Below are positions 17,042-56,417 of a DNA stretch of 64,000 nt, in pieces; within the stretch, counting starts at the first letter, position 1, and every line of letters starts with the position of its first letter. This DNA is from Trichococcus paludicola. GTDB taxonomy: Bacteria; Bacillota; Bacilli; Lactobacillales; Aerococcaceae. Location: NCBI RefSeq assembly GCF_003052295.1, contig NZ_QBLC01000003.1, positions 62,001 to 126,000 on the forward strand, written 5' to 3'. The notes beneath the pieces were generated by a model that did not search any database, was not told the origin of the DNA, and saw only the letters and a program-made list of their open reading frames with translations. A program made the position numbers and the translations under genes.

Positions 17042-17073
17042 AGGAAGCACTGTGGGCGCAATCGCCCAAGTGT

Positions 17074-17112
17074 ATCATGTCTCTAAGCGATTAAAAATCG
17101 CAAGAGCCATGA
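17074..17112. repeat. Imperfect hairpin after glpK
   Basis: TCATGtCTCT..GCGATT pairs with AATCGC.AGAGcCATGA around AAA, without a T run. It immediately precedes the first copy of the structured repeat and may belong to it or be a degenerate terminator. Confidence 0.45.
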
Positions 17113-17217
17113 CAAAACCCGGGTAGAAATCGCGCACTAAGAGGACTAACACAAAGCGGACGCTTTGTGTCCGTGTGTGTTAGTCAGCTTAGGCACAGAT
17201 TTCTGGGATTCAGAACG
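17111..17217 (+). repeat. Structured intergenic repeat, family 1, copy 1
   Basis: About 105 bases with nested stems: AGAAATC (17125-17131) with GATTTCT (17198-17204), CTAAG (17137-17141) with CTTAG (17188-17192), GACTAACAC (17144-17152) with GTGTTAGTC (17177-17185), and an inner ACAAAGCG/CGCTTTGT hairpin. The borders GGGTAG and ATTCAGAAC are shared with three other copies at 17232, 54843 and 55031. No coding potential and no terminator-type T tract. It lies between glpK and rapZ. Confidence 0.75.
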
Positions 17218-17231
17218 CGTTTAAGAAAGAG

Positions 17232-17341
17232 CGTGATGGTCTGTGCGGTAGGGGGTGAGCATTGAACGGGCTAGCCGTAATGGGTCTGTTTTCGCCCATG
17301 AAGGCTAGCCAGATTAGACGGAATCCCCTGCAAATCAGAAC
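17232..17341 (+). repeat. Structured intergenic repeat, family 1, copy 2
   Basis: Second tandem copy, 14 bases after the first. Borders GCGGTAG and CTGCAAATCAGAAC match the other copies. Stems: AGGGG with CCCCT (17250-17254 / 17325-17329), GGCTAGCC with GGCTAGCC, and ATGGG with CCCAT. The stem sequences differ from copy 1 while the layout is kept. Confidence 0.65.
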
Positions 17342-53407: not shown

Positions 53408-54838
53408 ATGAATTATGAAACAGTCATCGGACTGGAAGTCCATGTGGAATTGAAAACTGAATCAAAAATGTTCTCCCCATCTCCAGCACACTTTGGGGCA
53501 GAACCGAACACAAACACAAACGTCATCGACTGGGGCTACCCGGGCGTCTTGCCTGTCATCAACAAAAGCGCCATTGAATTCTGCATGAAGGCCGCTTTGG
53601 CTTTGAACTGCGAAATCTCGACGGAAACGCATTTCGACCGCAAAAACTACTTCTACCCGGACAATCCGAAAGCCTACCAAATTTCGCAATTGGATAACCC
53701 AATCGGCCATGACGGCTGGGTCGAAATCGAAGTGGAAGGCGTCAAGAAAAAAATCCGCATCGAGCGCGTCCATCTTGAAGAAGATGCCGGCAAAAACATG
53801 CACGGATCGGACGGCTATTCCTATGTCGATTTGAACCGTCAAGGAACGCCATTGATCGAAATCGTATCGGAAGCGGATATGCGCTCTCCTGAAGAGGCTT
53901 ATGCTTATCTGGATGCCGTACGCCAAATCATCATGTACACAGATGTATCCGATGTGAAGATGGAAGAAGGCTCCATGCGTTGCGATGCCAACATCTCCAT
54001 CCGCCCATTCGGCCAAGAAAAATTCGGCACGAAGACAGAATTGAAGAACCTGAACTCCTTCAACTTCGTCCGCAGAGGTTTGGCTCATGAAGAAAAACGC
54101 CAAGCACAAGTATTGAACGCTGGCGGGGTCATCCAACAAGAAACACGCCGTTTCGATGAAACAAATGGCGAAACAATCCTGATGCGCGTCAAAGAAGGCG
54201 AAAGTGATTACCGTTACTTCCCGGAACCGGATCTGCCAGGCTTGACCGTTTCCCAAGAATGGATCGACCGTGTCAAAGCAAGCATTCCGGAAATGCCAGC
54301 AAAACGCCGTGAAAGATACATTTCTGAATACGATCTGCCTGAGTACGATGCAATGGTATTGACACTATCGAAAGAAATGTCCGACTTCTTTGAAGGTACC
54401 CTTGCTGCCGGTGCGGATGCCAAATTGGCTTCCAACTGGTTGATGGGTGAAGTATCAGCCTACCTGAACAGTGAAAAAGTGGAACTGGCCGACACGAAAC
54501 TGACGCCAGCGAACCTTGCCGGCATGATCACATTGATCGAAGACGGCACCATCAGCACGAAGATCGCCAAAAAAGTCTTCCGCCTGTTGGCAACAAAAGG
54601 CGGCGACGCAAAAGCAGTCGTTGAATCAGAAGGCCTGATCCAAATGAGCGATCCGTCGCAACTGTTGCCGATCATCAACGCCGTTTTGGACAACAGCCAA
54701 CAATCCGTTGACGACTTCAAAGCCGGAAAAGATCGCGCCAAAGGCTTCCTAGTAGGCCAAATCATGAAACAAACCAAAGGCCAAGCCAACCCAGGCATGG
54801 TCAACCAACTCCTGGCGCAGGAGTTGGAAAAAAGATAG
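53408..54838 (+). CDS. gatB: Asp-tRNA(Asn)/Glu-tRNA(Gln) amidotransferase subunit B
   Basis: Kinase and transamidase subunit. The N-terminal [21 protein letters not shown], the [17 protein letters not shown] region, and EDAGKNMHG are GatB hallmarks in the cradle domain; the C-terminal YqeY-like tail domain (~330-476) ends [16 protein letters not shown]. Length 476. GGAGGAAAAC ribosome binding site lies at the end of gatA. The downstream spacer contains two family 1 repeats. Confidence 0.97.
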
Positions 54839-54842
54839 GATA

Positions 54843-55017
54843 CGATGAATTGCGGGTAGGGGGCGAGCACTAACGAAATTTAGGAACAACCAGCCCGGGT
54901 TTGGCTGGATGGGTCTAAATAGCGTTAGGCACTCAAACGTCACAGTGCGACGTTTGAGGTCTTTAGCAATCTTTGTACCAAGCCAAGAGATGCGTTTTCT
55001 ATCTGCAATTCAGAGTT
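54843..55017 (+). repeat. Structured intergenic repeat, family 1, copy 3
   Basis: Terminal stem GAATTGC (54847-54853) with GCAATTC (55005-55011); inside CTAACG/CGTTAG, ATTTAG/CTAAAT and CCAGCC/GGCTGG. An extra hairpin CTCAAACGTC/GACGTTTGAG (54932-54957) makes this copy longer than the others. Borders GCGGGTAG and CTGCAATTCAGA are shared with the family. Confidence 0.7.
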
Positions 55018-55030
55018 CGACTAATAGGAT

Positions 55031-55137
55031 GTGATGATTCGCGGGTAGAGTTCGAGCACTAAGAGGACAACCACAAAGCGGACGTTTTTTGTCCGCGTGT
55101 GGTTGTCAACTTAGGCGGAGAACTCTGCGAATCAGAA
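55031..55137 (+). repeat. Structured intergenic repeat, family 1, copy 4
   Basis: Stems GATTCGC/GCGAATC (55036-55042 / 55127-55133), AGAGTTC/GAACTCT (55047-55053 / 55120-55126), CTAAG/CTTAG (55059-55063 / 55110-55114) and GACAACCACA/TGTGGTTGTC (55066-55075 / 55098-55107). The positions of the stems match copy 1, but most paired bases differ in a compensatory way. Confidence 0.75.
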
Positions 55138-55188
55138 CTCAACTAAGATAGAGCGAGATTCAGAACGCGTCTGCGTTGAGCACATTCC

Positions 55189-55220
55189 AGCCAACTTCCT
55201 TCCGGAGGTTGGCTATTTTT
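55189..55220 (+). terminator. Terminator of gatCAB transcript
   Basis: AGCCAACTTCC / GGAGGTTGGCT hairpin followed by ATTTTT, 350 bases after gatB and beyond the two repeats. Confidence 0.8.
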
Positions 55221-55299
55221 CTGAAATAATAAACTCTCAAAAAAATCGCAATAAACCTATCTTTTTCCAGTTCAACAATTAGTATTATTATGATTTAGG

Positions 55300-55385: not shown

Positions 55386-56417
55386 ATGAGAGCAAGAGTA
55401 ATTTACAATCCTACTTCCGGAAGAGAAATGCTGAAAAAAAGCATGATTGACATCCTTCAAATATTGGAAGAAGCAGGCTATGAGGCCAGTGCGTACGCCA
55501 CTACACCCGAACCGCTTTCCGCAACAAAAGAAGCGGAACGTGCCGCTTTGGCCGGATTCGACCTGATTGTTGCAGCAGGCGGAGACGGTACCGTAAACGA
55601 GGTTGTCAACGGTATCGCCGGATTGGACCACAGACCGACAGTTGGCATCATACCTGCAGGGACCACAAATGACTATGCCCGTGCTTTGAAGATTCCGCGC
55701 TCAAATCTATTGGATGCAGCCCGCATCATCGCTGACGGAAATGTCATCCCGATGGATATCGGTCAATCCAATGGTACTTATTTCATAAATATCGCGGCAG
55801 GCGGTTATCTGACGGACCTGACCTACGACGTCCCTGCGAAGCTGAAGACCATTTTCGGTTACCTTGCCTATCTGGTGAAAGGCGCCGAAAAAATCCCGCA
55901 GCTCAAACCAATGCATATGCGCATCGAGTATGAAGACGGCGTCTACGACGGCATGGCTTCCATGTTCTTCGTGGCCTTGACCAACTCGGTCGGCGGCTTT
56001 GAGACGATCGATCCGAACATCGTTTTGGGGGATGGCAAGTTCACGCTGTTTGTCGTGAAGACCGCGAACATTTTCGAAATCCTGCAACTGTTGGCCCAAG
56101 TTTTGAACGGGGGCAGACATCTTGAAAATTCGAACGTCCTTTATACACATACCAGCTTTGTGAAAGCAGAATCCATGGATGGTTCACGTTTGATGATCAA
56201 CTTGGATGGGGAGTACGGCGGTGATGCACCGACTACGTTCACGAACCACCAGCAGCACATCAAAATCATCGGGAATACTTCCGATTACGCTGATCCAATC
56301 GAAGAAGTCGATGAAGGTATTTTGGAAGGTGCCGGCACAGGCTTCATGAAGGAAGTTGAAACCTTGCATCCGGATGAAGTAAACGACAAACGTTTGCCTT
56401 ACGACGGCAAGAACTAA
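55386..56417 (+). CDS. dgkB: Diacylglycerol kinase (soluble, YegS/DgkB family)
   Basis: Recycles diacylglycerol, a by-product of LtaS activity, to phosphatidic acid. The N-terminal RARVIYNPTSGREM, nucleotide-binding VAAGGDGTVNEVVNG near residue 60 and GIIPAGTTNDYARALKIP are the DgkB catalytic signatures. ATG 55386 gives 343 residues with GAGGAAAA just upstream; earlier ATGs add up to 14 residues. A Glu-rich C-terminal tail extends beyond the ~300-residue core. It supports the LtaS pathway in this window. Confidence 0.92.
   Translation: MRARVIYNPTSGREMLKKSMIDILQILEEAGYEASAYATTPEPLSATKEAERAALAGFDLIVAAGGDGTVNEVVNGIAGLDHRPTVGIIPAGTTNDYARALKIPRSNLLDAARIIADGNVIPMDIGQSNGTYFINIAAGGYLTDLTYDVPAKLKTIFGYLAYLVKGAEKIPQLKPMHMRIEYEDGVYDGMASMFFVALTNSVGGFETIDPNIVLGDGKFTLFVVKTANIFEILQLLAQVLNGGRHLENSNVLYTHTSFVKAESMDGSRLMINLDGEYGGDAPTTFTNHQQHIKIIGNTSDYADPIEEVDEGILEGAGTGFMKEVETLHPDEVNDKRLPYDGKN

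Follow-up and report, generated by a model that had tools for sequence, protein, structure and literature searches.

Introduction

Tandem arrays on one strand, inserted at stop codons within operons, are formed in mycobacteria by the MIRU elements. We know of no sequence or fold that these share with the repeats described here, which occur in another phylum. Within the Lactobacillales, the EFAR/Efa-1 repeats of Enterococcus are intergenic, structured and multi-copy; Efa-1 is given as an element of 163 bp in 65 copies that consists of a pair of adjacent stem-loops (PMC2267715). The BOX elements of Streptococcus pneumoniae are modular, structured and MITE-like, built of boxA, boxB and boxC, and 36 of the 58 coding sequences that overlap them do so at the extreme 3′ end of the gene (PMC3049150). 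REP/BIME repeats with RAYT combine a hairpin with a conserved foot, lie near gene ends and can supply TAG stops (PMC3733652).

Here, we describe a family of hairpin units found in a stretch of 64,000 nt of Trichococcus paludicola DNA (hereafter, the window), where two of them directly follow the gatB gene. Their AG foot and their position close to TAG stops recall REPs, their size and probable duplications recall MITEs, and their modularity recalls BOX. Compared by description alone, Efa-1 comprises two adjacent stem-loops, whereas the present unit is one hairpin of ~120 nt, and BOX is assembled from modules, whereas the present units keep their ends and exchange their core. Enterococcus faecalis carries the present family, and it is possible that EFAR/Efa-1 represents a branch of it that has already been published. 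Unlike REP/BIME, the unit is much longer, stands in head-to-tail arrays in the loci read, has no constant GTAG and could be tied to no RAYT. The hairpin family is named in no title or abstract found by our term searches of the literature. We consider it likely that each unit is a copy of a non-autonomous hairpin element of MITE/REP-like character that inserts beside AG at gene ends.

The Array Between gatB and dgkB

The gatB gene (53408–54838, + strand; NCBIfam GatB equivalog, E 1.7e-266) ends in a TAG stop codon (54836–54838) that abuts the first of two whole units. These two (54839–55145) stand in tandem on the gatB strand, between the stop codon and a terminator-like hairpin with an 11-bp stem and a T tail, located 3′ of the array by a consensus scan (55189–55214, + strand). 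The next gene, dgkB, for diacylglycerol kinase, follows at 55386–56417 on the + strand (NCBIfam PRK13055, E 5e-146).

Unit 1 (54839–55023, + strand; core type C) was delimited by its sequence, its fold and the syntenic copies in L079, L082, L083, L086 and L087, which lack the nested repeat. It consists of P0 GATAC/GTTC, P1 TGAATTGC/GCAATTCA, the one-sided bulge GGGT, then P2, the core GAGCACTAACG...GCGTTAGGC and the tail GACTA. It owes its extra length to an unrelated second repeat nested in its 3′ arm (a D part, hairpin CTCAAACGTCACA/TGCGACGTTTGAG; + strand, at about 54931–54993, with approximate edges), which is missing from the syntenic unit 1 in L082 and L087. A separator ATAG (55024–55027, + strand), repeating the end of gatB (GATAG), leads to unit 2 (55028–55145, + strand; core type A), with P0 GATGT/ACTC, P1 TGATTCGC/GCGAATCA, bulge GGGT, P2 AGAGTTC/GAACTCT, the core GAGCACTAAG...CTTAGGCGGA, the inner stem GACAACCACA/TGTGGTTGTC and the tail AACTA. 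Unit 2 scores 125 bits (E 5.8e-31) with the covariance model R1 and 130 bits with R2, being a seed of both. After a further separator, AGATAG (55146–55151, + strand), again a copy of the gatB end, there is a collapsed third unit (55152–55169, + strand), AGCGA-GATTCAGA-ACGCG, identified by sequence, from which the interior is missing; at the same position, L080 has a whole unit with similar ends and L083 a short one.

The preliminary description of this region had proposed terminal stems GAATTGC/GCAATTC and GATTCGC/GCGAATC, which are read as claimed at 54847–54853/55005–55011 and 55036–55042/55127–55133, respectively; the P2 and inner stems of unit 2 that it named are present as well. Its count of two copies per locus was confirmed, with the refinement that the gatB array adds the collapsed third unit. 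It did not foresee the order-wide spread, the placement at stop codons, the modularity of the cores or the presence of a second repeat nested in a unit.

Compared with dinucleotide shuffles, the fold energy of unit 2 has a z of −9.9 (none of 200 shuffles as good), and that of the unit pair a z of −11.0 (none of 100). The conserved 5′ motif, with up to three mismatches, occurs three times in the window against 0.08 expected.

The other locus in the window (17111–17340) lies directly after a glycerol kinase gene. Its unit 1, of type A, has the 5′ foot replaced by a nested E repeat (17111–17215, + strand; sequence and R1 E 4.6e-24, as a seed of the model), and unit 2 is type C-like (17235–17340, + strand; R1 E 4.3e-12). 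In the whole genome, blast with the gatB array found 16 matches including the array itself, and R1 likewise 16 at E ≤ 0.1, one of them the opposite strand of a counted unit; R1 was built from ten units, which it matches by construction.

A Conserved Fold with Exchangeable Cores

The unit is one long imperfect hairpin of about 118–125 nt with fixed asymmetries. P0 (4 bp) is followed by G.A mismatches (a GA/GA pair between P0 and P1) and by P1 (~8 bp) and P2 (~7 bp), between which the 5′ strand alone carries a bulge of 4 nt; further inward come a GA/GNA loop, a GC-A-NTAA/TTAN-GC stem with a bulged A, and a variable hairpin. The P0 types covary: GATAC/GTTC and GATGT/ACTC with a bulged T, AGCGT/ACGC, AGTGT/ACAC and AGCGC/GCGC. 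What can be exchanged is the core together with the inner hairpin: GAGCACTAA/TTAGGCGGA is common to types A and C, and type B has a different core, with the outer stems and the bulge kept (fold z −8.7).

The core pair of integron attC sites is RYYYAAC/GTTRRRY. Integron attC was considered, as GCACTAAC/GTTAGGC resembles that core, and rejected: the corresponding CACTAAG/CTTAGGC of type A breaks it.

Compensatory changes, claimed before from the copies in the window, are real. We judged covariation by pair counting, with shuffled and slid controls. In the alignment of ten units, 21 of the 38 predicted pairs carry compensated changes on both sides. Fifteen units from four genera, with the structure drawn on the window’s unit, pair in 85.9% of cells and show double changes in 35 of 42 pairs, the covariation score being 0.522 as compared to 0.197 (shuffled) and at most 0.139 (slid). 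In genera other than Trichococcus, 107 distinct units (114 in total, from 54 loci) with a mean pairwise identity of 0.48 pair in 92.1% of cells, with double changes in 41 of 42 pairs and a score of 0.924, as compared to 0.211 for shuffled and at most 0.156 for slid controls. The set is not fully independent: its alignment was fitted to the model, at least one of its units is a seed (L205, Pisciglobus), and seed genera such as Lacticaseibacillus may be included. With more copies, the double changes thus stand far above both controls. The one-sided bulge is exactly 4 nt long in 95 of the 107 distinct units, and the bulged A is kept in 78. The ratios of G.T to A.C, 160:51 in set A3 (picked by a model favouring G.T), 7:5 in set A2 and 9:8 in Trichococcus, leave RNA and DNA folding undistinguished.

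Distribution in the Lactobacillales

With R1, the repeat was found in all 13 genomes of the genus (the own genome included), in one of 16 genomes from other families (G025, Pisciglobus halotolerans) and in none of 12 from other genera of the family, the last figure reflecting the limited reach of R1, since the broader R2 scores some. An exact pattern search of named genomes yielded 12 stretches, belonging to Trichococcus species, Pisciglobus halotolerans, Ligilactobacillus acidipiscis, Lacticaseibacillus saniviri and one Sedimentibacter contig. The last was set aside as Trichococcus DNA, for the contig carries a Trichococcus-like gatB with units; the record itself, labelled Sedimentibacter sp. 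SX930 (MUZD01000008.1; L163), looks mislabelled or contaminated.

The family is spread patchily: of 395 Lactobacillales genomes, R2 detected it in 63, about one in six, of which 12 belong to the window’s genus, and it did so in 27 of 80 genera, with at most nine candidates scored per genome. Eight of the positive genomes, selected because their matches were many or strong, hold 21–110 R2 matches each; as 150 candidates were scored, the largest counts are possibly lower bounds. In a phylum sample of 398 genomes, some of them from the order, R2 scored in the own genome and in one other of the class, the latter with two matches (E 6e-8 and 1.4e-7). Latilactobacillus curvatus carries 39 units in a 232-kb stretch, and E. 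faecalis has two end-to-end units in 350 kb, 5 and 14 nt past annotated stop codons and on the same strand.

A structured repeat thus occurs in about one in six sampled Lactobacillales genomes, yet has no Rfam match: Rfam (release 15) gave none in the window at gathering thresholds, and for 54830–55240 at E ≤ 10 a weak Qrr match alone (16.8 bits, where 50 are needed). One conserved pattern of the repeat had no match in viral contigs, one unit of genome G393 had none in phages, and neither the window array nor the same G393 unit had any in plasmids.

Blast against plasmids with an E. faecalis unit (L296:24000-24160) found similar repeats on 64 records, five of which cover at least 80% of the query. 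Enterococcus accounts for 53 and Lactiplantibacillus for six; the rest are single records labelled Pseudomonas, Escherichia, Klebsiella, Lactococcus and Lacticaseibacillus. Two sequences filed as plasmids, CP117684.1 (L. curvatus) and NZ_CP143580.1 (E. faecalis), look like chromosome pieces, with the housekeeping genes alaS, groL and mutS on the former, and gatCAB and rpl/rps on the latter.

Placement at Stop Codons

In the two complete Trichococcus genomes G001 and G006, 61 R1 units (62 were listed, one an opposite-strand double) form 42 arrays, of which 41 could be placed on a sequence stretch, with genes from our own simple ORF calling. Of these, 35 lie behind a same-strand gene and six between antisense genes. 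The boundary is at most 7 nt from the end of the stop codon in 27 of the 41; among the eight other sense arrays, three stand behind another unit’s end, one stands behind a nested repeat and two are partial matches inside a unit.

Over all Trichococcus loci in the dataset, we gathered 47 distinct stop-codon sites. AG precedes the boundary at 46 of them. The stop is TAG at 24 sites, TAA at 20 and TGA at three, as compared to 152, 373 and 240 in a background of 765 ORFs, and TAG itself abuts the unit at 20 of the 47 sites.

In other genera, 12 of 16 loci have the unit in the strand of the upstream gene, −7 to +18 nt from its stop. A wider set of 59 arrays with the upstream gene called, which includes these 16 loci, holds 37 sense arrays, and 24 arrays are located within −3 to +12 nt. 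In G181 (L207, L259–L265), all nine arrays are antisense to the upstream gene, and some are directly preceded, as judged by eye, by ACCTCC, the Shine–Dalgarno complement; this is a different targeting habit from the stop-codon placement. In G235, six of ten arrays with the upstream gene called are antisense and four lie over 400 nt away. As G181 and G235 break the placement, the stop-codon rule is lineage-specific.

Occupancy at Shared Loci

GatB was found in 12 of the 13 genus genomes, and in all 12 (the own genome included) one to four units extend from the gatB stop codon on the gatB strand. Read by eye, the combination is C+A in the own genome, C alone in G004, B+C+A in G003 and C+A+B plus a short unit in G001. 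The gatB–dgkB spacer measures 334–751 nt in ten of the 12 genus genomes, where the dgkB start was located by script; in E. faecalis, whose GatB is 81% identical, the annotation leaves 18 nt between the two genes. The preliminary description had looked to this spacer in relatives for a pair that is either present or cleanly absent. The number of units indeed varies, and the E. faecalis spacer is 18 nt; in the genus, the site is filled in all 12 genomes. In L079 (G012), a gene that by eye resembles an IS605 OrfB transposase is located at the 5′ side of gatB.

At other loci, occupancy differs between genomes. At the 17-kb locus, the own genome and G001 have units and G006 lacks them. At position 87683 of the G006 stretch, units are found in G006 and G001, and the own genome has none apart from a possible short remnant. 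The locus 3′ of a HIT-type gene (named by eye) has a unit in the own genome, and none in G001 and G006. By their flanks, 16 of 19 G006 arrays have a counterpart in G001 (by eye), and movement to new sites is therefore slow.

The separators are a short word particular to each locus. They read GATAG or AATAG at gatB, where the coding end is AAAAGATAG. The clcA locus, which lies 5′ of a gene that by eye encodes a ClC-type chloride transporter, has the coding end ATGTAG and the separators TGTAG or GTAG (once GTTG). The separator 3′ of the HIT-type gene is TAAGAG.

Probable Movement and Target Duplication

Two strains of L. curvatus, JCM 1096 (G362) and CACC879 (CP117684), are ~99.5% identical in aligned stretches. 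Of the 39 units in the JCM 1096 stretch, 34 are whole in CACC879, three are outside the compared range and two are missing. The two constitute a single 248-nt difference, present in JCM 1096 and not in CACC879, with the edges GAAAGA|AGT on the left and GAAAGA|AGTGCG on the right, so that the layout is GAAAGA|units|GAAAGA. Gain and loss are indistinguishable here, and a deletion between the flanking repeats could have produced the difference.

In Trichococcus, flanking repeats of at least 5 nt are found at eight of 41 clean first units; only five of 5000 re-pairings of the flanks reach eight (mean 2.35). A less strict set, which took in a unit remnant (L168) and probable non-units (L104, L219) absent from the 41-site set, gave nine of 45 (mean 2.4 and maximum 8 in 2000 re-pairings). 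The hairpin family is probably mobile, with a target duplication of probably 5–7 nt at insertion. The duplication is visible in a minority of sites (8/41), and the element itself might include the final AG.

Origin of the Units

The units are short (~120 nt), dispersed (16–110 matches per genome) and without an enzyme of their own, as in MITEs. The preliminary description had suggested a multi-copy RNA or a hairpin-forming mobile element. Covariation and the outcomes of the synteny comparison support that claim, and a non-autonomous hairpin element fits the facts better than a static RNA gene. Such an element would be served by an enzyme supplied in trans that recognises the folded strand. Insertion would occur 3′ of AG and duplicate 5–7 nt, often including the stop codon; as the duplication would rebuild the target, units could accumulate head to tail. 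Arrays that lie, as at gatB, between a stop codon and a terminator probably become part of the transcript as hairpins of the 3′ UTR, a position in which they would be tolerated. Limited searches revealed neither an enzyme nor an autonomous copy; in Pisciglobus, none of 49 blast matches at E ≤ 10 formed, by eye, a pair of half-units a gene apart.

More tentatively, and with considerable doubt, the units might represent a new, order-wide class of mobile elements defined by structure, in which a folded strand (RNA or single-stranded DNA) is inserted at gene ends by a putative trans-acting enzyme; in several lineages such elements would target stop codons and have exchangeable cores, and in another they would form an antisense branch placed before ribosome-binding sites. 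Strong hairpins directly 3′ of stop codons, that of gatB included, bear on mRNA 3′ ends, genome annotation and strain typing, and they raise the questions of which enzyme puts a hairpin beside a stop codon and why the fold is kept across genera at 48% identity.

Classical MITEs, that is, deletion derivatives of a DDE insertion sequence that are moved via their ends with a 5–7-bp target duplication, would have the size, the paired ends and the direct repeats of the units, in which no coding role is seen. Their ends, however, pair imperfectly and differ between subtypes, while it is the interior fold and the one-sided bulge that are conserved. An origin of this kind is possible but doubtful.

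The units could also be REP/BIME-like and owe their movement to a Y1 (HUH) transposase that reads, on single-stranded DNA, a hairpin together with its short 5′ foot; the AG would then be the end of the element’s own GTAG-like foot. This would agree with the AG that stands directly 5′ of the hairpin at 46 of the 47 stop-codon sites in Trichococcus, and with the Y1_Tnp genes, of RAYT or IS200 TnpA type, in 12 of the 13 genus genomes. The exception, G008, has 24 R1 matches and no Y1 match. Moreover, AG is constant, but the two letters 5′ of it follow the locus. IS200/IS605 insertion proceeds without target duplication, and locus-specific direct repeats would be unexpected. GTAG ends of REPs often supply the TAG stop of flanking ORFs, according to one report (PMC3733652); the REP sizes published in two papers, 20–40 bp and 21–65 nt, are exceeded by the present units (GATG-to-CAGA spans mostly 103–109 nt, whole units about 118–125). 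Altogether, we regard this origin as rather unlikely.

Domestication offers another reading, in which the units are 3′ UTR RNA elements, such as mRNA stabilisers or processing sites, that are under selection and shuffled between genes by recombination. It would account for the sense orientation at gene ends, the strict RNA-like fold and the position of the window array between stop codon and terminator. We think it unlikely, as presence, number and type of units vary at one gene between species and strains, and the arrays of G181 are antisense.

These antisense arrays also argue against RNA-mediated retroposition, by which the transcript of a hairpin would be returned to DNA at the ends of genes. 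Such a process would suit the sense orientation at stop codons and the variable length (5–7 nt) of the direct repeats, but the copies run end to end: 59 of 61 distinct units span model positions 1–105 and two span 22–87, where retroposition should also leave 5′-truncated copies (although the scores of short copies may be too low for listing), which makes it improbable. Finally, template switching at quasipalindromes gives concerted changes in both arms, yet such DNA-level correction without selection on the fold is a most improbable source of the complementarity, since it should erase the 4-nt one-sided bulge (95/107) and the bulged A (78/107), both of which persist across the sampled genera.

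A Second Small Repeat Nested Within Units

A second small hairpin repeat (D/E parts; right end AAGAGCCATGACA) is nested within units at several loci. It occurs in the window at 54931–54993 and at about 17043–17115, and elsewhere in L085, L086, L114:5540-5672 and L017; Pisciglobus has a near-identical copy. L086 and L087 make up a filled and an empty site (with and without the repeat, respectively). The D/E repeat looks like an IS200/IS605-type mini-element.
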